Source of the DNA: Phycisphaerales bacterium
Lineage (GTDB): Bacteria; Planctomycetota; Phycisphaerae; Phycisphaerales; SM1A02
Direction of reading: 5' to 3'
Assembly: GCA_028823105.1 (NCBI GenBank)
Contig: JAPKCC010000005.1
Coordinates: 1 to 59,370, forward strand
DNA length: 59,370 nt
The notes beneath the pieces are model-generated. The model had not been told where the DNA came from and did no database searches. It saw only the letters and a program-made list of their open reading frames with translations. Shown here one piece after another: positions 42,021 through 55,298 of the stretch; the first letter of the stretch is position 1, and every line of letters begins with the position of its first letter. A program made the position numbers and the translations under genes.

Positions 42021-43706
42021 ATGCTCTTCCGAACTTCGATCCACGATTCATCCTTCCATCGTCATGAGGGCAAAGTCCTTTCGACCGTCATCGCCGTCGT
42101 CGCGGTGGTCGGTGTCGGTACGGCGTTGACTCTTTCACTGGGCGGCGCAGAGCAGGCCGAGTCGTCGATCGACGCATCTCAGATCCACACCGTTTCTCGT
42201 GGCGACTTTCAGATCGTGATCCCGGCCAGTGGAGAACTGACCACCGAACGACAGGTGGAGATCAGGAATCTCCTCGAAACCCGCGCCGTGATCACCGAGA
42301 TCGTCGGCGAGGGCACGTTCGTTCACGAGGGCGATGTGGTTCTTCGGATCGCGGATGACGAGTTGATCAACCAGATCAAGGATGGTGAGGACAAGGTTCA
42401 GACCGCGGAGAGTTCGGTCATCGCGGCGGAACAATCGCTTGCGATCCGGAAATCGACGATGGCGAGCGATCTCGATAAGGCGGATCTGCAGATCGTGATC
42501 GCGAAACTCGCCATGCGGGCCTGGGAGGAGGGCGGCGTCGTCACCGCCCGACAGAAGCTCGACCTGGAGATTCAGACCGCGACGATCAACCGAGATCGAC
42601 TCGTCAAACGAGCCGAGGACGGACGGAAGCTCGTCGCAAAGGGCTTCCTCGCGCTGGATGAATACGAACGAGATCGCATCGCGATGATCGAATCAGAAGC
42701 GCGGGTGAAGGAAGCAGAGCTCGCGAAGAAGGTCTACGAGGACTACACGATCAAGATGGAGTCGGCCACCAACAAGTCCGCGGTCGACCAGAGCCTGGCT
42801 GAGAAAGGACGAGTTCGACAGCGACACGAGGCCGAGATCGTGAAGATCGAAGCCGACGTCGAGAGCGTCCGGTTCAAGCGGGAGTCTGCTCGCGAGCGAC
42901 TTCAGGATCTCAAGGACCAGCTTGTGGCCTGCAAGATCAACGCCCCGAGTGACGGACTGGTGGTCTATGCATCGAGTCTCTCCAGTGGTGAGCGACGAGG
43001 ACGGGACAATGAGCCACCGCCGCAGGTAGGAACAGAACTACGCCAGAACGAACTGGTGATGATTCTTCCGGACACCAGCCGGATGATCGCCAGTCTCAAG
43101 GTCGGAGAGGCATTGAGTGGTCGGGTTCGTGAAGGTCAACCCGCCGTCATCTACAGCGACTCCCTTCCCGGCACGGCCATTCCCGCATCGGTGCTCGGAG
43201 TGAGCGTGCTCGCAGAAAGTGGTGGATGGCGGGATCCCAATCGCCGCGACTACACCGTCCGAGTCCTGCTCGACACCGATCCTTCCATGGGGCTCAAGCC
43301 ATCGATGCGGTGCCGAGGCGAAATCGTCCTCGGCAAGGTCGAGAATGCCGTCTCGGTGCCGATCCAATCGGTCTTCCGAAAGGGCCCGATCGCGTTCGTC
43401 TACGTCCCGGATGAAGGCGGCTTCGCCCAACGGGAGGTGACGATCGGCCGTTCGAGCGAGATGGAGGTCGAAGTGCTCAAGGGACTCGAACCGGGAGAAA
43501 GCGTGCTCTTGCGGCGACCGACTCCAGGCGAGATCAGTTTCGAGATTGAAATGGCGGCGACGACTCCCGGCGGTGAGAAGAAATCTTGGACGGGTGGCGG
43601 CCGTCCGGCGGGCGCTCCAAGCGGGAAACCAAGTGGCAAACCGACTGGGAAGCCCGCGTCAGCACCGGCGAAGCCATCCGGGAAGCCCAGTGGCCGACCC
43701 GGTTGA
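42021..43706 (+). CDS. Membrane-fusion efflux adaptor (HlyD/RND type)
   Basis: The protein has 561 residues. One N-terminal membrane helix (about 20-42) is followed by a barrel-sandwich half (GDFQIVIPASGELTTERQVEI). A long coiled coil of about 190 residues comes next, then the second half (ACKINAPSDGLVVYAS), a beta-barrel and a membrane-proximal domain (AVSVPIQSVFRKG). It would bridge an inner-membrane pump and an outer-membrane channel. The C-terminus carries a Pro-Lys-Gly-Ser tail with repeated SGKP units from about 516 to the end. The next gene is an MFS transporter, not an RND or MacB pump. The hairpin length suits a TolC-type partner such as the lipoprotein at 18383. Confidence 0.9.
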   Translation: MLFRTSIHDSSFHRHEGKVLSTVIAVVAVVGVGTALTLSLGGAEQAESSIDASQIHTVSRGDFQIVIPASGELTTERQVEIRNLLETRAVITEIVGEGTFVHEGDVVLRIADDELINQIKDGEDKVQTAESSVIAAEQSLAIRKSTMASDLDKADLQIVIAKLAMRAWEEGGVVTARQKLDLEIQTATINRDRLVKRAEDGRKLVAKGFLALDEYERDRIAMIESEARVKEAELAKKVYEDYTIKMESATNKSAVDQSLAEKGRVRQRHEAEIVKIEADVESVRFKRESARERLQDLKDQLVACKINAPSDGLVVYASSLSSGERRGRDNEPPPQVGTELRQNELVMILPDTSRMIASLKVGEALSGRVREGQPAVIYSDSLPGTAIPASVLGVSVLAESGGWRDPNRRDYTVRVLLDTDPSMGLKPSMRCRGEIVLGKVENAVSVPIQSVFRKGPIAFVYVPDEGGFAQREVTIGRSSEMEVEVLKGLEPGESVLLRRPTPGEISFEIEMAATTPGGEKKSWTGGGRPAGAPSGKPSGKPTGKPASAPAKPSGKPSGRPG

Positions 43707-45048: not shown

Positions 45049-46404
45049 TCAGTCGATCGAGTCGAGCGAGATGTTCTTCGACCGCAGCGAACCAACCGTT
45101 TCATCACGCCAGACGACGACCATGCTCGGGGGACGACCGGAGGTCTCGTCACCGGGGACGAGCACCGATCGAGGAAACCCGGCGCGGCGGCCGAGATTCA
45201 TGACATCGACGTAGTGGACGCGGCCGAGTGCACCATCACGACCCAGCCGGCGCATCGCGATCGAACCGAGTTCGTCATCCGAGTCGGAGGCCGGTGCGAA
45301 GGTCGTCGACCCTGGCTCCCGATGGTCAATCCAGAGAACGATCGCATCACCGTTGGGAAGCATGACGACATCGGTACGACCGATGGTCTGTCGGGCGACG
45401 GTCTGTGGCGGGGCAAAGGTGGCGCCACCATCGCCGCTCCGCGATGCGAGTACTCGAGGCCCCTCTTCGCCTGCGGCGGTGAACCAGGCAACGACCATCT
45501 CGTCGCGAATGGCATCGACGCTCGGACCATTCACGGGGCAGGCGGGGAATTCCCATCGGTCACGAGAGACTGGCATCGGCGTCGTCCATCCGTCGGTGGT
45601 TCGACGTACGATGAAGATGTCCCTTTCCTCGTTCGGTCCTCGATCGCGGTACACCACCACCGGTCCATTCGAAGTCATCGCGACATCCGTATCGCAGCAC
45701 TCGCAGACCCGGGCATCGAGCCCGATCGAACGACGTGGAGCGGTCGCGGATGGGGAATCATCATTCGGGACGAGCGCCGTCCGAAGGGTCATCGCGCCGC
45801 CACCGCCATGACCATGGTCGCCGTGACCGTCATCGGCTCCCGGCGTCATCTGCCGTCCGTCGAGCCAGGTGAAGAGGACGCCATCGGGAAGCGGCAGCGC
45901 GGACACGAAACCATGTTCGACCGGACGCTCATCGTCATGGAGCCACCCGAGGTCGCTCCAGGTCGCACCCTCGTCGGTCGAGCGGGAGAGCATCACGCCA
46001 TAGGCATACGTGCCGCCGTCCATTTTTTGAAGGCGATGGGCGATCAAGGATCCATCCGGAGACCGGCGGATCGCGGGGCGATCGGCCCAGTTGGCGAAGA
46101 GGCCGCCGCCGTCGTAGATCGTGCGCGGCTCCGACCAGGTCAGGGCCGCGTCGCCTTCATCATCCGTCCCCGGTCCCAGACGACTGAAACGAATGGCCTG
46201 CGTCCCCTGATCATCAGGTTCGATCCAAGTCGCCAATACGCCATCGCCATCGGGACTGAGTTCGACGGCGAACGCCCCGTTGGCGGCGGGCGGGTCGGCA
46301 GTGGCGTTGGTGGTCCCGAGGGTGAGCAGGAGGATCGCGGATGTGAACAGTCGCGGGACCATCAAGACGCGAAGAGCGAATCGCGATTGTGGAATCATGG
46401 TCAT
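45049..46404 (-). CDS. Exported BNR/sialidase-like beta-propeller with CECC motif
   Basis: The protein has 451 residues. A signal peptide (about 1-36, ending in TNATA) precedes a six-bladed propeller. Asp-box repeats are seen as STDEGATW and SGDGGATF. A cysteine cluster, LDARVCECCDTDVA, lies between blades, and a His/Gly-rich insert DDGHGDHGHGGGG precedes it. These could bind metal. The catalytic FRIP arginine and Tyr/Glu pair of true sialidases are not evident, so neuraminidase activity is doubtful. It starts at an ATGA overlap with rmuC. Confidence 0.82.
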   Translation of the reverse strand: MTMIPQSRFALRVLMVPRLFTSAILLLTLGTTNATADPPAANGAFAVELSPDGDGVLATWIEPDDQGTQAIRFSRLGPGTDDEGDAALTWSEPRTIYDGGGLFANWADRPAIRRSPDGSLIAHRLQKMDGGTYAYGVMLSRSTDEGATWSDLGWLHDDERPVEHGFVSALPLPDGVLFTWLDGRQMTPGADDGHGDHGHGGGGAMTLRTALVPNDDSPSATAPRRSIGLDARVCECCDTDVAMTSNGPVVVYRDRGPNEERDIFIVRRTTDGWTTPMPVSRDRWEFPACPVNGPSVDAIRDEMVVAWFTAAGEEGPRVLASRSGDGGATFAPPQTVARQTIGRTDVVMLPNGDAIVLWIDHREPGSTTFAPASDSDDELGSIAMRRLGRDGALGRVHYVDVMNLGRRAGFPRSVLVPGDETSGRPPSMVVVWRDETVGSLRSKNISLDSID

Positions 46405-47843
46405 GATGCTGTTTCCTCTCCCGGGGGGAGTAGAAGTTCTTCGCGAACCACGCGGCGAGGTTCTGCCTCGATGACCACTGGGGTCTCGAGTTCGTCGGCG
46501 GTGGTCGCCCCGAGTTCTTTCATCTTTCGTGCGGCGGGAAGGATGGAGTTTTCCAGAGATCCGACGGCCCTGTTGTAGTCCTCGGTTCCCTGGCGAAGCC
46601 GGTCGCCAATTTTCATGAAATGTGAGTTGAAGGTACCCAGCCGTTCGTAGAGCGTCGCGCCAGCCTTGGCGATCTCACGCGCGTTGGCGGCGACCTTTTC
46701 TTCCTGCCAACCGTACGCCACAGCTTGGAGGAGCCCGACCAGAAGCGTCGGCGTGCAGATGAGAACATGCTTCTGCATCGCATCAAACTGGAGATCGGGT
46801 TTTCGTTCCAGGGCTGCGACCAACGCGCTTTCGATGGGCATGAACATCACGACGATGCGAGGGGTGCGTTCGAATTGTTCCCAGTACTTCTTATCAGAGA
46901 GATCGCGAACATGCTTCTCGACTGCACCAGCGTGCCGATGCAGCTGAGTCTCGCGGAGTTCCGGCGTCTCGCTTTCGAGCATATCGAGGTAGGCATCGAT
47001 TGCCACTTTCGAATCCACCACGATCTCTCCGCCGCCGGGCATCTTGACGATCATGTCGGGACGAAGAATCTTGTCGCTCCCGGCGACCTTCACGGAGACC
47101 TGCTCTTCGAAATCGCAGTGCTCTGACATTCCGGCAATCTCAACGATGTTTCGAAGTTGCATCTCGCCCCAACGGCCACGCTGTTCTGGTCGGCGGAGCG
47201 CGGAGACAAGTTTCCCCGTTTCATCTCGGAGCGACTTGTGCCCTTCCGCGATGACCTTCATTTGTTCTTCAATTCCCGTGAATGCTTTCACTCGACGGAC
47301 TTCAAGCTCCTGAAGCGTGGTCTGCTGCTTGGCAATCGACTCCTTCATGGGTTTCAGCAACGACTCGAGCTGTTCGTGACGCTTGCCAAGATCGCCGCCG
47401 ATTTTCTCTTGCGCGAGTTCGAAGTGGGCGGTGGCGAGTTTGACGAACTGGTCATTGTTCTCTTTGAGCGCTTCGACGCCGAGTGCCTTGAACGTCTCTT
47501 CGAAGCGTTTTCGGGCCTCTTCGAGACCACGCGCGTGCTCGTCGTGCTTTTCGTTGGCGGCCTTCAGATTCCCTTCCATCCGAGTAGTCGCAATCCGTGC
47601 TTCCTCCGCGGCTTTCATCGCGGTATCACGAGCTTCGACGGCGGTCCCGACCTCCGATTGAGACTCCGCAAGCCGGCTCTCGGTCTCGACGACCCGCGCG
47701 TTCGCGGCGTCCGTCCGCGCCTTGCTGGCGGCCAGTTCGGAACCGAGGTCCCCTTGCCGACGGCCAAGCCACAACGACACCCCGAGTGCCGCAAGGACGG
47801 CACCGAGGACGATTCCGGAGAACAGCCAGAGAAGATCGGTCAT
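46401..47843 (-). CDS. rmuC: DNA recombination protein RmuC
   Basis: The protein has 480 residues. An N-terminal membrane helix (about 5-27) is followed by a coiled coil of about 150 residues and the RmuC nuclease-like domain. The domain is complete: RGRWGEMQLRNIVEIAGM, LRPDMIVKMPGGGEIVVDSKVAIDAYLDMLE, FMPIESALVAALERKPDL and LICTPTLLVGLLQAVAYGWQEEK. RmuC limits recombination between inverted repeats, with a PD-(D/E)xK-type fold proposed. It is the first gene of a two-gene unit with the BNR protein. Confidence 0.96.
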   Translation of the reverse strand: MTDLLWLFSGIVLGAVLAALGVSLWLGRRQGDLGSELAASKARTDAANARVVETESRLAESQSEVGTAVEARDTAMKAAEEARIATTRMEGNLKAANEKHDEHARGLEEARKRFEETFKALGVEALKENNDQFVKLATAHFELAQEKIGGDLGKRHEQLESLLKPMKESIAKQQTTLQELEVRRVKAFTGIEEQMKVIAEGHKSLRDETGKLVSALRRPEQRGRWGEMQLRNIVEIAGMSEHCDFEEQVSVKVAGSDKILRPDMIVKMPGGGEIVVDSKVAIDAYLDMLESETPELRETQLHRHAGAVEKHVRDLSDKKYWEQFERTPRIVVMFMPIESALVAALERKPDLQFDAMQKHVLICTPTLLVGLLQAVAYGWQEEKVAANAREIAKAGATLYERLGTFNSHFMKIGDRLRQGTEDYNRAVGSLENSILPAARKMKELGATTADELETPVVIEAEPRRVVREELLLPPGEETAS

Positions 47844-47946
47844 GGTGCGATCCTAACACCCTGCCCTCGTCGATCTGACCCGATTTAGGCCTGAATCGAC
47901 TTGGTTCGAGTTGACGGTCGGAGATGAGGCATCGAAGGTATCGAGC

Positions 47947-49170
47947 ATGAAGCACCATTCCTCGACCCTGATGATTCTCGCCGCGATCCTCTTCACAATG
48001 CCGAGCCTCGCCTCTGTGATCAGTCGCCAAGCCGCGCCGGACACAGAAACGACGGTCTCTGGAGCACCCGCGGTCGTCGTCTTCGAAGCCGGAGTCGATG
48101 GGTATTCCCACATTCGGATCCCCTCCCTGCTGACCCTGGAGGACGGCAGCCTGCTTGCCTTCGCAGAGGGTCGTGCGGGAGGTGACCATGCGAAGAACGA
48201 CATCATTCTGAAGCGATCGACGGACCAAGGGATGACCTGGGGGCCGCTCCAGAGACTCGACGACCAGGGTGGCGACTCGCTCAACGATCCGATGGCGGTG
48301 GAGATCCGGCGGGGCCCCCACCGAGGACGAGTGGTCCTCTTCTATATGTCGTTTCCAGAGGGATGCCACACGAATTGCGTGAAGCCGGGATACGGGTCGG
48401 ACAGTTCGCGGAACTGGATGATGACCTCCGATGATCACGGCGCGACGTGGTCGAAGCCGCGCGACGTGACCGAGATCGTGCGTCGGCCGACCTCGAGCTT
48501 CGCAGGGAGTCCGGGGGTCGGGATCCAACTCGTCAAGGGTCCACATGCTGGTCGGTTGGTGATTCCGTATCGACAGGGACCCCTCTCTCGCGTCCAGATC
48601 TACATGCTGTTCTCGGATGACGGCGGTGCCATGTGGACTCGTGGTGAACTCGTCGACGATGGAACCGACGGGGGTGGCGGGGATGAAGTTGCGATCGCCG
48701 AACTCTCGGATGGAACGTTGATCCTCAATGCACGAGGACACAATGGCGCGCCAAAGTCTCGCAAGACTGCCCGATCGACGGACGGTGGCGTCACCTGGAC
48801 CCCGCTTGCGAATGATCCGTCGCTTCCGTCGCCCCACTGCATGGCGTCGATCATCCCGTTCAGCATCGAGACGGCGGCCGGTTCCCAGTCCGGGCTTCTC
48901 TATGCCGGACCGTGGAGCCCCGATCGGCGGGCCCTCGGCTCGATCTCGGTCAGTGACGCCGCCGGGGAGAACTGGTCGGGGCCCATCGAAGTGGTGCCGG
49001 GCGGCTTCGCGTACAGCCAGCTGTCGATGATCGGGAAAGGCGAGGTCGGGCTGCTCTTCGAAGGGGCGGGCTATGCCCAGATCGCCCTGCTGCGTCTTGA
49101 TCTCAAGGATCTTCTGATCCGGGCCGAGGCCGAATCACGCCCCGCCAATACCCCACCATCCGGATCCTGA
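47947..49170 (+). CDS. Exported GH33 sialidase
   Basis: The protein has 407 residues from ATG 47947, the start that gives a signal peptide (MKHHSS to about residue 25). The sialidase hallmark arginine is in HIRIPSLL. Five Asp boxes follow: STDQGMTW, SDDHGATW, SDDGGAMW, STDGGVTW and the degenerate SDAAGENW. The GGFAYSQLSMIGKGEVGLLFE segment carries the catalytic Tyr with its Glu nearby. It should release terminal sialic acid from glycans in the periplasm or outside. No sialate catabolism genes are in the window. A weak hairpin at 49194-49207 follows the stop. Confidence 0.93.
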   Translation: MKHHSSTLMILAAILFTMPSLASVISRQAAPDTETTVSGAPAVVVFEAGVDGYSHIRIPSLLTLEDGSLLAFAEGRAGGDHAKNDIILKRSTDQGMTWGPLQRLDDQGGDSLNDPMAVEIRRGPHRGRVVLFYMSFPEGCHTNCVKPGYGSDSSRNWMMTSDDHGATWSKPRDVTEIVRRPTSSFAGSPGVGIQLVKGPHAGRLVIPYRQGPLSRVQIYMLFSDDGGAMWTRGELVDDGTDGGGGDEVAIAELSDGTLILNARGHNGAPKSRKTARSTDGGVTWTPLANDPSLPSPHCMASIIPFSIETAAGSQSGLLYAGPWSPDRRALGSISVSDAAGENWSGPIEVVPGGFAYSQLSMIGKGEVGLLFEGAGYAQIALLRLDLKDLLIRAEAESRPANTPPSGS

Positions 49171-49268
49171 GCCGGTCAGCAGGCCAGGGATCGCTCAGGA
49201 ATCTGAGGCAAGACCCTCAATTTTCCAAATTCCACCCGAGTCCTGGAGACTCGACCCGGAGACCGGCC

Positions 49269-49868
49269 ATGGACTCAGTGGTGACGACGCACGACTGCCA
49301 TGATCTGGACGCGGTTCGATCCGGGGATCTCGAAGCCTTCGGGCGGATCCACGATCGGCATGCCCCCTTGGTGCTTTCTCTGTGTCGCCGCCGCGGCTTC
49401 GGTGGACCGAGTGGTTCACCGGCCGATGCCGAAGACGCGACTCAGGAGGTTTTCATCCGTGCCTACCGCAAACTCGACACCATCGAAGACTGCACTCGAC
49501 TCCGGTCCTGGCTCTGTGCCATTGCCGGGTACGTGCTTCGTGAACGCCGACGAGCGGCGGCTCGTCGGCATCGTCATGAGGGCGTCGCCATGACTGCTGC
49601 CATTCGAAGCCATGGAGGCGTCTCTTCGGTGACGCCCGAACAGGAACTGTCTCGACGAGAACAATTCGCCGCCCTCGAGTCCGCCCTGGACGGACTTGCG
49701 GACGAGGAGCGCCTCGCGATTCATCTTCATTATCTCGAACACGATCCGGTGGCGGCCGCCAAGGAATCGCTGGGGCTCTCCCGTAGTGGTTTCTACAAGT
49801 TGCTCGCCCGCGCCCGGACTCAACTCGCCAACCAACTCCGCGATCACGCGCCGGGGGACTCCCGATGA
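49269..49868 (+). CDS. ECF-type RNA polymerase sigma factor
   Basis: The protein has 199 residues with GGAG ahead of ATG 49269. Region 2 is seen as LEAFGRIHDRHAPLVLSLCRR and DAEDATQEVFIRAYRKLDTIEDCTRLRSWL. Region 4 is seen as LADEERLAIHLHYLEHDPVAAAKESLGLSRSGFYKLLARARTQL. No extra domains are present. Its stop overlaps the start of the VIT-VWA gene as ATGA, so both proteins are made in step. That is the usual arrangement for a sigma factor and its anti-sigma factor. A conserved autoregulated promoter could not be identified in the 98 bases upstream. Confidence 0.95.
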   Translation: MDSVVTTHDCHDLDAVRSGDLEAFGRIHDRHAPLVLSLCRRRGFGGPSGSPADAEDATQEVFIRAYRKLDTIEDCTRLRSWLCAIAGYVLRERRRAAARRHRHEGVAMTAAIRSHGGVSSVTPEQELSRREQFAALESALDGLADEERLAIHLHYLEHDPVAAAKESLGLSRSGFYKLLARARTQLANQLRDHAPGDSR

Positions 49869-52800
49869 ACCACCGACTCTTCAATCTCAGTATTCACCGC
49901 GCCCCCGATGCCCCTGGCTCGGGAGGTTCCGACGACCTTGACCGGCTCCTTCGCGACTGGCACGACGAGAACACCGCTTCGGCTCGCGCCGGCCGTGATC
50001 GCCTGCTGGAGTCGGTGACTGCGGAAGATGCTCCGGTCGGTCGGGTTGACGCCGACACCCCGAGGCCAAAGCCGGCTGCCGAAACCAATCGCGGCCGGAC
50101 GGTACGACGCCCGCTTGGTGGTGCGTCGCTCTTCTCCGGAAGCGGGCTCGCCGCGGCGGCGCTCTTCGTGGTCGTCGGTGTGCTGGCGGTGCTGGTGCTC
50201 CAGCCCTCGCCGAACGTGGCGTTTGCACAGGTGGTGCAGGTCCCCGACGGTGGCCGACTTGACGCTTTCGCCGTGGATGGCGAGGTGATCGGCCCTTGCC
50301 CGCTTCGTGGCACCGATGTCGATGTTGAAATCAGCGGACCGATGATTCGCGTCTCCCTTGCGCAGACCTTTGGAAACCCCTACGACACGCCGATCGAGGC
50401 GGTCTATACATTTCCGATGTCGCATCGTGCCGCGGTCGATCGCATGGTCATGACGGTCACCTCGCCCAACGGCGACGAGCGGGTGGTGGTCGGCGAAATC
50501 AAGGAACGCAACCTTGCCCGCGAGATCTACGAGGCGGCGAAGGATGCGGGATATGTGACGAGTCTCCTGGAACAGGAGCGACCGAACATCTTTACCCAGT
50601 CGGTCGCGAACATCGAGCCCGGCGCGACCGTGAAAGTCGAGATCGGCTACGTCGAGGTGCTGCTCGCCCGCGACGGCGAGTATGCCTTCGAGTTTCCCAC
50701 CGTGGTGGGACCCCGGTACATCCCGGGCGTCTCGAACACGCCGTCGAGCGGCCTTCCAGAAGGTGCCGTGCCACGTCGCGGACTCGTGCTTCGAGGCCCC
50801 TGCACCATCGTCCCCTTCGGCAATCAGGAAGCTTGGGCGGAGTTTCTCGAACGTTCGGACCAGGGGTTTGACGGCCTGACCTTCGGGAAGTGGATGCGTG
50901 ATCGGCGTACCTCCGAGGCTCCCGCGTCTTCCGGAAGTTCGGGCGATCTAGAGAATGTCAATGCCCGGACGTACTGGACCGAGAATCGTCTGTTCCAGGC
51001 TTTGTCGACCGCGACGCGGATCAAACGTCCCGTGTCCCTCGACATCGATTCCCGAGAAACCCGTGATCAACTCGCCGCGACCGGCATGGTCGAGTATCTC
51101 TCCCCCGTGAACAATGGCGATACCGCGGACACGGGGATCGACCACGTCAGGCTGGAGGAGTTCACGCTCTACCACGACGGTGATCGGACGGACCGCGGTC
51201 TCGGATCGATCAACGGTCGATGGTTCGCCTGGCACCTGCCCGACGCTCAAGAACCCGGCGGTGGCTTCGCCGAGCCAACCGACCAAGTCCCCGACGCAGA
51301 CCGAATCACGCCGATGCCGGTGCGTCCTCCGATGCGAGCTGGCCATGACATCGCGATCGAGGTGCGAGTCGACACTGGCGGCATTCCGATCACCTCGATC
51401 GACGCGCCGTTGCACGAGGTCGTCGAGACCCGTGACGGACCCGGTCGAATCGTCATCTCACTGGCGAACCGTCGGGAGATTCCCAATCGGGACTTCGTAC
51501 TACGTTGGCGGCTGCAGGACGACGCGATCACTGAAAGCGTGTTCACCCACGTCGCACCGGGGATCTTCACGGCCATCGTGCCGGAAACCCCAGTCGACTC
51601 GGCGAGTGTTCCCGGCGGATATCTGAGCATGGTGATCGCCCCGCCCGCCCGGGTCGAATCGAAGGAGATCCGCCGACGTGAACTCGTCTTCGTTCTCGAC
51701 ACCTCGGGTTCCATGAGAGGTTTTCCGATCGAGAAGAGTAAGGCCGTGGTCGCGCGATCGATCGACGCGATGCGTGACGGCGACACTTTCAACGTGATCA
51801 CATTCGCGGGCAAGACGTCTGTCCTCTGGCCTGATCCGAAGCCGGCCACCCCGGAGAACCGCGAGGCGGCCCGGCAGTTCATCGAGGGCCTCGCCGGCGG
51901 CGGCGGTACCGAAATGATGGACGCGATTCGAACCGCGCTCAATCCCACTGGTTCGTCCTCGGATCATCGATCGCCCGCCGAGCTTGCAGATCTCCCCGCC
52001 GATGGTCGGATGGTCGCGGTGGAAGCGCCGTATTCCGCCATCGACCGTGGCGAGGGTTCGACCTGGCTCGTGGTGCGGGACGGCCTTCGAATCCCGATGG
52101 AACTTCCCGTATCGCTTCCGACCGTCAAGGACGGCGACCCCATGGTTGCCCTTGAGGGTCGTTGGTCGACGGTGGAAGGCGTTCGTCGCTACGACGTCGC
52201 CATGGCTTCCTTCGCGGAAGCAGAAACCGTCCCGCCGCTTCGCATCGTGATGTTCCTGACCGACGGGTATGTCGGCAACGACCAGGGCATCATTCAGGCA
52301 ATTCGAGACAACGCAAAGTCGACCCGGGTGTTTTCGCTCGGAATCGGTAACAGCGTCAACCGGTATCTACTTGATTTGATGAGCCGGGAGGGCCGGGGTG
52401 CGGTCGAGTACGTATTGCTCGCCGACGGTGCCGACGAGATCGTGGAGCGACTCGCAAAGCGAATCGAATCACCGTTGCTCACCAACATCGAAGTCGTGGT
52501 CGAAGGTGTCGAGGCATTCGAAGTGCTTCCTCAGAACCCACAGGGACTGCTGCCCGACCTTTTCGATGCGGCCCCGATCATCCTTCACGCGAGGTACTTG
52601 CCATCGGCGGATGGGCCGGTGGAAGGCGTGGTACGAATCACCGGCGAGACCGCCACCGGTCCGTACGAACGTCGGATTCCAGTGGTCTTTGCATCGTCGA
52701 ACGATGACAACGCGGTGATCGCGACGCTGTGGGGTCGAGCGAAGGTCGACGATGTTCTTGCCCCCCATCTCGCCGCGGTCGAAAACGGATCGGTCTCGTC

Positions 52801-53953
52801 CACCATCGAAGCCCAAGTCGTCGCCCTTGGCGAGGCGTATTCGATTGTCACGCCGTTCACGAGTTTCATCGCGGTCGAGAAGTCACGAGTGGTGGTCGGC
52901 GGCCGGCCGATGCTCGTCGACATCCCGATCGAACTTCCCGAAGGAACCAACTGGGAAGGATTCTTCGGAGACGATTGCCCGCCGGTGGTTCTGGAGAATG
53001 CGATTCGTTGCGGGGTCGTGGTGTTGCCAGAACGAATCGACGGCGGCCGAGACATCGGGCTTCGGGATGAGTTGATGGAAATGGATCAAGATGTGGAGCT
53101 AGAAATCGTCGCCGAGTCAGAGGCTGAAGTGTTCTTCGAGAAGGGCAAGTCGAATGCCGGCGCGGTCGCTCGACCGGATCAGTCACGGGCGTCGAAGCGG
53201 AGCCAGGACCCTGCGGGATCGATCGTCGGCGGGCGTGCAAGACGAGCGTTGTCTCGCAAGTCCTCCACGGCGACTCGATCGTTTTCTGGAGCGACGGCCA
53301 CACCAAGCCGTGAAGGGCTCAGCCGAACACCTTCGCGCGGTTTCGGTGGCGGTGGCGGTGGCGGTGGCGGTGTAAGTGGTGGCGGCAGGTTCGCTGGGGG
53401 TGTCGTCGGTAAGACGGGAAATGCTCCGAGGCCCGCAGCACCACCGGCCGGTATGGCGCTCGGAACGACCCTCGCCGAGGAAAGTTCCGATCTCGGTGAA
53501 GATCGAAGGAACATTGACTCGCCCATCGAGCGTGGCGTGGATCTGGCAGCTCCGGAGGAGGTGGCGGTTGACGATCTTAAGGCGGTCGATGTTCTTGAGG
53601 CCGTCGAAGCAGCGGAACCGGAGCCGTCACTCGACATGGATCGTCTTTGGAAGGTTCTGGACCGTCGGTTGTTGCTGTTGGCATTTGGCGCCGATCCATC
53701 GGTGGTGCCCGGCCTGCCGGCTCACCGGCTCGATGGTTCACCTTGGATCAAGGACGGATCCGTCGAAGTCACTCTTCGGGTCGACGGCGGATCGCCTCTC
53801 GATCAAGGGGAGCAATTGAAAGCGGCCGGTCTGGTGATCGAAGGCAGCGACGCGTCGGCCAACATTCTGGTCGGACGAATCTCGATCGATCGTCTGTTCG
53901 ATCTGGCAGAACTCACATTCGTGCGTCGTGTGGTACCGACCAGCGGGAAGTGA
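49865..53953 (+). CDS. Membrane-anchored VIT-VWA protein, candidate anti-sigma sensor
   Basis: The protein has 1362 residues. A cytosolic part of about 92 residues (DDLDRLLRDWHDENTASARAG) precedes one membrane helix (about 94-113). A VIT domain follows (about 130-275) with the hallmark YTFPMSHRAAVDRM. An unusual region lies around 335-485. The VWA domain begins near 607 with the metal motif DTSGSM at Asp612 and contains LTDGYVG near 795; about 85 extra residues sit between GGGGTEMMDAI and that motif. Beta domains follow, then a Ser/Arg stretch, a poly-Gly linker near 1158-1175, and a C-terminal domain (about 1240-1362) resembling subtilisin propeptides. Coupling to the sigma gene suggests that the cytosolic part binds the sigma factor. 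That role is inferred. Confidence 0.88.
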   Translation: MNHRLFNLSIHRAPDAPGSGGSDDLDRLLRDWHDENTASARAGRDRLLESVTAEDAPVGRVDADTPRPKPAAETNRGRTVRRPLGGASLFSGSGLAAAALFVVVGVLAVLVLQPSPNVAFAQVVQVPDGGRLDAFAVDGEVIGPCPLRGTDVDVEISGPMIRVSLAQTFGNPYDTPIEAVYTFPMSHRAAVDRMVMTVTSPNGDERVVVGEIKERNLAREIYEAAKDAGYVTSLLEQERPNIFTQSVANIEPGATVKVEIGYVEVLLARDGEYAFEFPTVVGPRYIPGVSNTPSSGLPEGAVPRRGLVLRGPCTIVPFGNQEAWAEFLERSDQGFDGLTFGKWMRDRRTSEAPASSGSSGDLENVNARTYWTENRLFQALSTATRIKRPVSLDIDSRETRDQLAATGMVEYLSPVNNGDTADTGIDHVRLEEFTLYHDGDRTDRGLGSINGRWFAWHLPDAQEPGGGFAEPTDQVPDADRITPMPVRPPMRAGHDIAIEVRVDTGGIPITSIDAPLHEVVETRDGPGRIVISLANRREIPNRDFVLRWRLQDDAITESVFTHVAPGIFTAIVPETPVDSASVPGGYLSMVIAPPARVESKEIRRRELVFVLDTSGSMRGFPIEKSKAVVARSIDAMRDGDTFNVITFAGKTSVLWPDPKPATPENREAARQFIEGLAGGGGTEMMDAIRTALNPTGSSSDHRSPAELADLPADGRMVAVEAPYSAIDRGEGSTWLVVRDGLRIPMELPVSLPTVKDGDPMVALEGRWSTVEGVRRYDVAMASFAEAETVPPLRIVMFLTDGYVGNDQGIIQAIRDNAKSTRVFSLGIGNSVNRYLLDLMSREGRGAVEYVLLADGADEIVERLAKRIESPLLTNIEVVVEGVEAFEVLPQNPQGLLPDLFDAAPIILHARYLPSADGPVEGVVRITGETATGPYERRIPVVFASSNDDNAVIATLWGRAKVDDVLAPHLAAVENGSVSSTIEAQVVALGEAYSIVTPFTSFIAVEKSRVVVGGRPMLVDIPIELPEGTNWEGFFGDDCPPVVLENAIRCGVVVLPERIDGGRDIGLRDELMEMDQDVELEIVAESEAEVFFEKGKSNAGAVARPDQSRASKRSQDPAGSIVGGRARRALSRKSSTATRSFSGATATPSREGLSRTPSRGFGGGGGGGGGVSGGGRFAGGVVGKTGNAPRPAAPPAGMALGTTLAEESSDLGEDRRNIDSPIERGVDLAAPEEVAVDDLKAVDVLEAVEAAEPEPSLDMDRLWKVLDRRLLLLAFGADPSVVPGLPAHRLDGSPWIKDGSVEVTLRVDGGSPLDQGEQLKAAGLVIEGSDASANILVGRISIDRLFDLAELTFVRRVVPTSGK

Positions 53954-53973
53954 GAGACGCCCGTCGAAAAGAG

Positions 53974-54010
53974 CACGCCCGTCCTTCTCTTAGGGAGAAG
54001 GCCGGGCGTG
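53974..54010 (+). terminator. Rho-independent terminator of the sigma/VIT-VWA operon
   Basis: CACGCCCG and CCTTCTC form the left arm, GAGAAGG and CGGGCGTG the right arm, with one T-C mismatch and a TTAGG loop. TTTGTTT follows directly. It begins 20 bases after the VIT-VWA stop. Confidence 0.9.
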
Positions 54011-54052
54011 TTTGTTTCTCGAAGGGGGTGAATCATCCCGGTCGGCGTGGAC

Positions 54053-54463
54053 TCACTCGATGCTCATGCGAATTCGGAGAGTGCTTTTCAAGATGCCACC
54101 TTCCCGAATCGCCGCATTGATGTCGACGACAATTCGACCATCGACCAAGGAGGAATCCGCGGTCACCGAAACGTCGAACGAATCGCCGAGGACTTCGATG
54201 GTCCCGGACTCTCCGATGGTCAGGAGGATCCGAGGTTCGCTGATCACTCGCGGCGGGTCCGTGGTTCGACTCACCACCATCGCGAGGTCGAACTGATCGT
54301 CTCCGATTCGGGTGCCGGTCGCGGTCAGTTGCCATCGATCGACGGAGACGGAGGCGTCACTTCCTTTGGAGAGGTCCGCGGACGGCGCCTGGGCGGCGCT
54401 GCAGCCGGCGATCAGAGCGGCTCCGAGGGCAAGCAGACTGGGAAGATATCTGGTTCGGCGCAT
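54053..54463 (-). CDS. Small lipoprotein with secretin-like beta segment
   Basis: The protein has 136 residues from ATG 54463, nine bases after AAGGA; an ATG three codons upstream is an alternative. A type II signal peptide ends in the lipobox LIAGC. The mature part is one beta-rich domain. The segment VISEPRILLTIGESGTIEV is close to the strand pair seen in secretin domains, where a phrase of the type 'ISxPRxLTxxGxxAxIxVG' recurs. It is far too short to form a channel. It may be a detached secretin-like module. It lies after the membrane-protein gene on the same strand, 43 bases from its stop. Confidence 0.7.
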   Translation of the reverse strand: MRRTRYLPSLLALGAALIAGCSAAQAPSADLSKGSDASVSVDRWQLTATGTRIGDDQFDLAMVVSRTTDPPRVISEPRILLTIGESGTIEVLGDSFDVSVTADSSLVDGRIVVDINAAIREGGILKSTLRIRMSIE

Positions 54464-54506
54464 GATCCACATTCCTTGGGTGTTGGTGTCTCGAAAAGCG
54501 GCTTGA

Positions 54507-55298
54507 TCAACGGAGCAGAACGATGGTGGCGGCCGCACCGAGCATCAAAAAGGAGAAGCCCAGAAGCATCCAGCGAGCGGTGCCCGGTTGCTTCATCGCT
54601 CCGACCATGAGCGGTATTGCGAGAAGTACCAGCATGACGTCCCAACCGAACGGGTCCTTGCGATCGGCTCGGTCGCCCCGAACATGCTCGATGGCGTCTT
54701 CGACGCCGTCGTTCGCATTGAGAATGACCGGCGCTTCGCCCGCGCGGACAGGGTCGGACGGATCGGCGCGACTGGAAAGTTCGACGCCGTTGGGAAGCAT
54801 GATCTGCATTGACCCGTCTTCGGCGGTCTCAAGATGGAACTTGGCCACTTCTCCTTCGAGGGGAAGTGGACGATGACCCATCCCGCTTGGTGGCGGGGCA
54901 TGCGAGCCGGTCCAAGAGCGATTCCAGGCGGAGATGTTCTCCATTCGGTCGCCCCGAACATGCGAGCCTTTCAAGACATCTTCGATCTGGACCGTGAATG
55001 AGAACTGGCGATCGATCCAGTCGCCATTGGTGGTCTCCACCATCGTGCGACCAAGTACCGTCGCGAGCACGATGTCGGTGGCGCCTTCTTGAAGATCATC
55101 AGCAGAGAGCGGCGCGATCTCCGAACTGGCGACCGCCAACGCGGTTGTGAAGGAAATGCCGATCAGGGAGACGAGGATCATCACGCACGTCCACAAACCC
55201 GGAGTGTTTCCAAGGGCGGGCGTGCGGTGGATCGGGGATTCTAGTGGCGACATGATCGGCTTCACAGTCTCTTCTTCGGCATCCCACCGGTTTGGCAT
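54507..55298 (-). CDS. Exported/membrane protein of unknown function
   Basis: The protein has up to 263 residues from ATG 55298. GTG 55265, with AAGAAGAG just upstream, and ATG 55253 are alternatives. One hydrophobic segment near residues 37-58 acts as signal or anchor. The middle is a beta-rich domain (DIVLATVLGRTMVETTNGDWIDRQFSF) that resembles small exported domains with a VLKG motif. Two hydrophobic helices end the protein. The phrase HVRGDR occurs twice, matching a 19-base exact repeat in the DNA. It follows xylA by 24 bases and may be co-transcribed. No function can be given. Confidence 0.65.
   Translation of the reverse strand: MPNRWDAEEETVKPIMSPLESPIHRTPALGNTPGLWTCVMILVSLIGISFTTALAVASSEIAPLSADDLQEGATDIVLATVLGRTMVETTNGDWIDRQFSFTVQIEDVLKGSHVRGDRMENISAWNRSWTGSHAPPPSGMGHRPLPLEGEVAKFHLETAEDGSMQIMLPNGVELSSRADPSDPVRAGEAPVILNANDGVEDAIEHVRGDRADRKDPFGWDVMLVLLAIPLMVGAMKQPGTARWMLLGFSFLMLGAAATIVLLR

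Follow-up and report, generated by a model that had tools for sequence, protein, structure and literature searches.

We analysed a 59,370-nucleotide stretch of DNA from a Phycisphaerales bacterium (contig JAPKCC010000005.1, positions 1 to 59,370; hereafter the window), in which a gene for an extracytoplasmic function (ECF) sigma factor overlaps a gene for a large protein with VIT and VWA domains. Planctomycetes have many ECF sigma factors, the inputs of which are mostly not known. The sigma gene (49269..49868, on the forward strand like all features of the pair given below) encodes 199 amino acids and was assigned by Pfam and NCBIfam matches and by a subfamily profile described below. Sigma70_r2 scored 47.3 bits (cut-off 24) and TIGR02937 (sigma70-ECF) scored 71.9 bits (cut-off 42.9), and region 4 was below the threshold in the Pfam scan (19.8 versus 25.7 bits). 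Judged by these matches, with sigma regions 2 and 4 and without region 3, the protein is of the ECF type. A homologous sigma factor (from locus L096) has SigW, AlgU and SigE as its best structure matches, and an alternative start of the window gene is the GTG at 49281, where conservation begins in relatives. The VIT-VWA gene (49865..53953; 1362 amino acids) starts within the stop of the sigma gene, at an ATGA overlap (49865..49868). The initial annotation had described this arrangement, and the open reading frames, the domain scores and the 4-nt overlap bear it out.

The VIT-VWA protein, which we propose to be an anti-sigma receptor, was delimited by its open reading frame and by domain scans. 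A stub of about 92 residues is followed by a hydrophobic segment, the VIT domain, the VWA domain and a poorly conserved C-terminal part. The VIT domain (amino acids 148-262; 50306..50650) scored 102.2 bits with Pfam. The VWA domain (approximately amino acids 606-870; 51680..52474) has an internal insertion and was matched by VWA_3 with 54.6 bits over two stretches, the best of which covers residues 606-693, and the residues of its metal ion-dependent adhesion site (MIDAS), D612, S614, S616, T682 and D800, are conserved in an alignment of 42 full-length stub-bearing proteins. With VIT followed by VWA and a MIDAS, the protein is, as far as its sequence tells, of the VIT-VWA (ITIH-like) kind. Sequence searches at E up to 0.01 found PARP4 (for VIT) and ITIH4/ITIH1 (for VWA) as solved relatives. 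We also modelled the ectodomain of a homologue (L105:8277-11621; mean predicted local distance difference test (pLDDT) 70.4, predicted template modelling score (pTM) 0.57), and its best fold match was inter-alpha-inhibitor HC1 (ITIH1, 6fpy; E 5e-31, TM-score 0.67 by target, 14% identity). In this PDB fold search the VIT-VWA core was matched and nothing informative was returned for the C-terminal domain. That weakly conserved domain spans amino acids 1251-1362 of the window protein (53615..53950); in the L105 model it corresponds to residues 1051-1108, with a predicted beta-alpha-beta-beta-alpha-beta order that may be reminiscent of propeptide/inhibitor-like ferredoxin folds. The ITIH heavy chains and the bacterial TIGR03788 proteins likewise have VIT plus VWA. 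However, the window protein bears a sigma-linked cytosolic stub, and its TIGR03788 score of 416.2 bits is below the cut-off of 551.65, so that an assignment as a marine sortase target was rejected.

VIT-VWA proteins had been taken to be mainly animal with scattered bacterial occurrences, but VIT is common in Planctomycetota (174 of 392 genomes), and the notion of a rare animal-like domain was therefore discarded. The source genome itself (3.35 Mb, 97.1% complete) has a single VIT match, the window protein, and the closest named relatives are uncultured Phycisphaerales/Phycisphaera metagenome-assembled genomes. Within the same family, VIT-VWA protein matches were found in 95 of 151 genomes, the stub-bearing kind only in part of them. 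We built a sigma profile (A8) from 29 paired-sigma rows and searched these genomes at E <= 1e-30, with no more than 22 first-look candidates scored in each. The A8 subfamily was found in 53/151 genomes, with one copy each (235-276 bits), and in 51 of the 53 the sigma gene directly adjoins a VIT gene, as compared by eye from the coordinates. In the genome G033 the sigma gene lies beside the stub on a short contig and the VIT gene is split, and in G105 the two genes are on separate contigs, where the VIT gene lies at the end of its own. Among 55 distinct pairs of sigma and VIT genes, 52 have the 4-nt overlap (the offset is +12 in two and +3 in one), and a W-H motif is found in all 55, within the first 70 residues in 54 and further along in L073. 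Both the overlap and the stub motif are retained in proteins with about 41-54% identity to those of the window. These results show that the pairing of sigma and VIT-VWA is near-obligate, and the conserved overlap together with pairing in 51/53 genomes argues for more than chance adjacency. The initial annotation had made its reading depend on such a pairing in relatives, and its condition for refutation, the lack of one, is answered by these counts.

The presence of the stub also coincides with that of the sigma gene. We examined the best 80 of at least 564 relatives, a selection that favours loci similar to the query, and scored the stub as the motif [LV][DE]..[LM]..WH ahead of VIT. A sigma gene lies directly upstream in 38 of the 43 motif-bearing loci, and the other five start less than 400 nt from a contig end. 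In contrast, 36/37 motif-less loci have no sigma gene in the 3 kb upstream, or in whatever shorter stretch the contig covers; the same holds for 26 of the 27 motif-less loci with the full 3 kb upstream. By eye, the motif-less proteins mostly begin with ordinary signal peptides, including the close relatives L120 and L134. At L161, an ECF-like sigma gene ends about 1 kb upstream of a stub-less VIT-VWA gene.

The conserved part of the stub is a predicted helix at amino acids 25-48 (49937..50008), LDxLLRxWHxxNxxxAxxxRDxLL, defined by conservation in 33 sequences, in which D26, L29, W32, H33 and A40 are invariant. The conservation is strongest along a single face of this helix (p about 0.002 by shuffling). 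We searched 61 genomes with the stub motif written as a DNA pattern, which matched 29 times. Of these matches, 18 fall within VIT genes, with one split gene contributing two, and 11 fall outside them; since the reversed pattern used as a control also gave 11, the search gives no indication that the stub occurs on other ectodomains. The 91-residue window stub has no H-x3-C-x2-C and no Pfam match, as would mark a class I anti-sigma factor, and Pfam scans of the window protein found no FecR and, with the whole protein and E values up to 1 allowed, no RsgI model either.

The hydrophobic segment that follows (approximately amino acids 95-112; 50147..50200) could be a membrane helix or the h-region of a signal peptide. 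It is the sole strongly hydrophobic stretch of the protein, which agrees with the single membrane helix of the initial annotation, but it ends in A-x-A and may be a processed signal peptide. The site, A119-F-A121 (50219..50227), was found through sequence conservation and resembles the -3/-1 residues recognised by signal peptidase I, with a cut predicted after A121. In the alignment of 42 proteins, only A119 and A121 are more than 90% conserved within amino acids 101-125. Of 59 distinct N-termini, 52 have a strict A-x-A downstream of the hydrophobic segment; by eye, six of the remaining seven have V-x-A or T-x-A, and L136 has none. Stub-less proteins gave 7/14 in the same test. Since the tail searched is rich in alanine, the conservation of the two columns is better evidence than the A-x-A counts. 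A signal peptidase I site is thus predicted after the membrane segment, as in anti-sigma factors of the RsiV/RsiP type, and its near-invariance suggests cleavage of a similar kind.

In other planctomycetes, known anti-sigma domains are found in the place of the stub. We examined 67 VIT loci, which represent 54 distinct places (13 were refetched with longer flanks); the sample is not random, as 27 were the best-scoring and 40 were partly picked for long open frames, and 14 have short flanks only. An ECF-like sigma gene lies within 1.6 kb upstream or overlaps in 15 of the 54 places. Two of the proteins beside a sigma gene, L180 and L183, have the order zf-HC2, transmembrane segment, VIT, VWA, with N-terminal zf-HC2 scores of 29.5 and 26.8 bits (cut-off 22.2), and the VIT protein L257, also beside a sigma gene, has an N-terminal FecR (43.2 bits, cut-off 24). 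In L259, zf-HC2 scored below the cut-off at 17.4 bits, yet H-x3-C-x2-C is present. A search for relatives of the L180 fusion in four genomes of its class found no close match outside G179. As domain matches indicate, VIT-VWA in Planctomycetota is coupled to anti-sigma-type parts more than once. That zf-HC2 or FecR stands in the place of the stub on VIT-VWA proteins beside sigma genes suggests, by analogy, that the stub does the same job, and these independent fusions are the strongest indirect evidence for its role. As a separate observation, a very long VIT-VWA protein (L261:2227-4500; open frame of 2142 amino acids) has a sigma gene that ends 32 nt before its open frame; its N-terminus looks anti-sigma-like by eye and had no Pfam match.

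We propose that the sigma factor and the VIT-VWA protein make up a sigma/anti-sigma receptor unit, which as a whole is probably the best explanation of the locus. That the VIT-VWA protein is the functional partner and regulator of the sigma factor is well supported by genomics. Translational coupling through ATGA would lead to both proteins being made together. The stub, with its LDxLLRxWH helix and a basic stretch before the membrane, would hold the ECF sigma factor inactive at the membrane, and the exported ITIH-like VIT-VWA part, with its MIDAS intact, would sense a ligand or surface contact. The signal would be passed on, possibly by a signal peptidase I cut at the A-x-A after the hydrophobic segment, and a cut by a site-2 protease would then free the sigma factor, as in RsiV/sigmaV and RsiP/sigmaP. 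Judging from the sequences, binding of the sigma factor by the stub appears quite likely, and the stub probably inhibits rather than activates it. Sensing of a ligand by VIT-VWA is reasonably likely, and a release gated by signal peptidase is put forward tentatively. A broader proposal, which we consider rather doubtful, is that VIT-VWA, an integrin-like, metal-dependent ligand-binding unit best known from animal plasma proteins, serves as a recurrent sigma receptor head in planctomycetes, having been joined several times to the W-H stub, zf-HC2 and FecR; in the window family, a ligand at the MIDAS would expose the A-x-A, the ectodomain would be shed and the sigma factor released.

Several known systems resemble the proposed unit. 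Signal peptidase cleaves the anti-sigma factors RsiV and RsiP; this site-1 cutting depends on a stimulus and is followed by a site-2 protease (PMC8844934). Like the window pair, RsiV/sigmaV and RsiP/sigmaP of Bacillus consist of an ECF sigma factor and a membrane anti-sigma factor with a signal peptidase site outside the membrane (PMC8844934). They differ in the ectodomain, which is VIT-VWA in the window, and the likeness is drawn from descriptions of these systems, regulated cutting being a prediction for the window protein. RsgI of the RsgI/SigI pair in Clostridium thermocellum also has a cytosolic N-terminal anti-sigma part, one membrane helix and a large interchangeable sensor ectodomain, but SigI belongs to a separate sigma group and the sensors of RsgI are carbohydrate-binding and other modules rather than VIT-VWA (PMC12203970). 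The class II anti-sigma factor CnrY, which places two helices against sigma4 and sigma2, likewise has a short stub in the cytosol that does not carry the class I zinc motif (PMC7406223). The window stub, however, has no detectable sequence similarity to solved chains. CnrY is not known to have a VIT-VWA ectodomain. The FecI/FecR and zf-HC2 anti-sigma pairs consist of a sigma factor and a single-pass regulator, and the same domains are fused to VIT-VWA in other planctomycetes, although the window protein has neither. Thus, the sigma/anti-sigma receptor kind itself is known, and what is new is the VIT-VWA ectodomain with a private stub and a candidate signal peptidase switch. In the open literature as available (including PMC8195603, PMC3174227, PMC7406223 and PMC8103513, each in part), we found no description of the sigma/VIT-VWA pair, and a mention in planctomycete ECF classification work is still possible. 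An assignment to the MoxR-VWA conflict systems described in PMC8195603 was rejected, as the seven scanned proteins of 45049-55298 gave no MoxR match.

If the proposal is true, planctomycetes would have an undescribed way to sense their surroundings. One ECF subfamily would gain a defined partner as well as candidates for the binding helix, the cleavage site and the sensor, bacterial VIT-VWA proteins would have a concrete role as signal receptors, and the list of ectodomains of one-protein sigma receptors would be widened.

A number of results weigh against this proposal. The initial annotation had suggested searching residues 1-92 against anti-sigma profiles, and the stub gave no significant anti-sigma match in Pfam, NCBIfam or PDB sequences; the only anti-sigma name among its profile matches was RsdA_SigD_bd (E 0.064), in one of 33 sequences. 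We also folded the L096 sigma factor and stub with AlphaFold2 as a read-through construct, in which the stop was read as W. In blocks of ten residues, the sigma core mostly reached a pLDDT of 94-98, falling to 60-79 between its domains, and the stub helix about 87-92, but the pTM was 0.43 with no confident docking, which is weak evidence, since only two stub rows were aligned and there was no true pairing. In this model the L096 stub is short and helical; as regards class II (CnrY-like) anti-sigma factors, the stub has no sequence match to solved chains. The zf-HC2 and FecR proteins have VIT-VWA, but not the stub, in common with the window protein. Planctomycete titles are found on nearly all stub-bearing loci and on 6 of the 37 stub-less loci, so that the contrast between them lies partly between phyla, and kinship and linkage are partly confounded. 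The source genome has matches for an M50 site-2 protease and for signal peptidase I (S26), but a site-2 protease was found in 14/14 and a signal peptidase in 12/14 control genomes; these peptidases are near-universal, and thus their presence proves little. Cutting at the A-x-A could be constitutive, and an HlyD-like neighbour in 10 of 19 genera could mean that the pair is part of something larger. Of the one-protein signal receiver that the initial annotation had put forward, the conserved one-to-one pairing, the occurrence of the stub where the sigma gene is and the anti-sigma domains in the same position elsewhere stand in support, and neither a significant profile match nor a confident docking was obtained for the stub.

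The near-invariant A-x-A would also fit an ordinary signal peptide removed constitutively, so that the stub holds the sigma factor only while the precursor awaits export, the sigma factor reports export capacity and the VIT-VWA part is the exported product. The signal peptides of the stub-less L120 and L134 have the same layout, which speaks for this explanation. However, constitutive cutting would presumably leave a large receptor-like part without a role as a switch, and by eye the zf-HC2 versions L180 and L183 have no A-x-A after the helix, the FecR version L257 having AVA. We regard this explanation as unlikely. It is less likely still that the stub is required for sigma activity, as with FecR-like activators, and that the receptor turns the sigma factor on instead of releasing it: FecR is found on L257, an independent VIT protein beside a sigma gene, but the window protein has no FecR match, and zf-HC2, which is typical of inhibitors, is found in two other VIT-VWA proteins, L180 and L183. 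About as improbable is a co-expressed effector, in which VIT-VWA is an exported product under the control of the sigma factor and the stub serves targeting or assembly. The lack of a significant match of the stub to anti-sigma profiles would agree with it, binding between stub and sigma factor being inferred only. Yet the stub and the sigma gene are almost always found together, VIT loci that lack the one nearly all lacking the other too, and known anti-sigma domains fill the same place in L180, L183 and L257. A chance neighbourhood, or an inherited gene order frozen without function, is extremely improbable. The stub-bearing loci are from related planctomycetes, and the HlyD-like gene near the pair indicates that some of the order is inherited, but this most widely shared other neighbour varies in distance, side and strand, and the overlap and stub motif are kept despite the sequence divergence given above.

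Some stub-less VIT-VWA proteins of the same family (L076-L089, open frames of 529-1247 amino acids) also occur near sigma genes, with a sigma gene upstream in 12/14 loci; none is seen in L082 and L085, and the one in L080 is immediately adjacent. Three of the loci (L078, L081 and L084) have as their next gene one for a single-pass protein with a terminal dockerin type I domain (30.8, 28.4 and 27.2 bits, respectively; cut-off 22.9), and it is followed by a gene for a small exported protein that is cohesin-like by eye, a label which no profile confirmed. The order is thus ECF sigma factor, dockerin protein, cohesin-like protein and VIT-VWA protein (for example, L078:3717-7487), with similar arrangements among L076-L089. 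By the position of the sigma gene alone, L271, L272, L274-L277 and L283 have a similar split layout. This layout has the appearance of a related sensing unit whose parts are linked by dockerin and cohesin.

The neighbourhood of the pair was surveyed in 45 loci of 19 genera, and the counts are minimum values, as flanks are short in several. The HlyD-like family of membrane-fusion genes mentioned above is the most widely shared outside the sigma-VIT span; its seed (L044) scored 26.0 bits with HlyD_3 (cut-off 22.2). In L041, L044, L046, L048, L059 and L066 the HlyD-like gene shares the strand of the sigma open frame and either overlaps it or ends no more than about 134 nt upstream of it; in other loci it lies 1-5.4 kb upstream, and it is on the opposite strand in L042 and L053. 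In the window it is at 42021-43706 (HlyD_3, 25.6 bits), about 5.4 kb upstream of the sigma gene, and the genes that separate the two are on both strands. Of the 19 genera, 8 have in common an outer-membrane efflux (OEP) gene (55.1 bits). The pair is thus often beside a TolC/HlyD-type export system, which could be its target or partner; our assessment of the proposal is not changed by this. A BNR/sialidase-like gene (47911-49170) immediately precedes the sigma gene on the same strand, and a homologue is found upstream of the sigma gene in all eight loci of its cluster, which covers the genus of the window and one other.

Between this gene and the sigma gene, two copies of GGAGAC are found 13 bp apart on the forward strand (49245..49263), and the second copy may serve as the ribosome binding site. 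They belong to a conserved GAGAC element, which is present in 33 of 42 sigma upstream regions, compared to about 4 expected from mononucleotide shuffling. The element is possibly the promoter or operator of an autoregulated unit. In L041 and L057 an inverted repeat, GGAGAC-N5-GTCTCC, is found.

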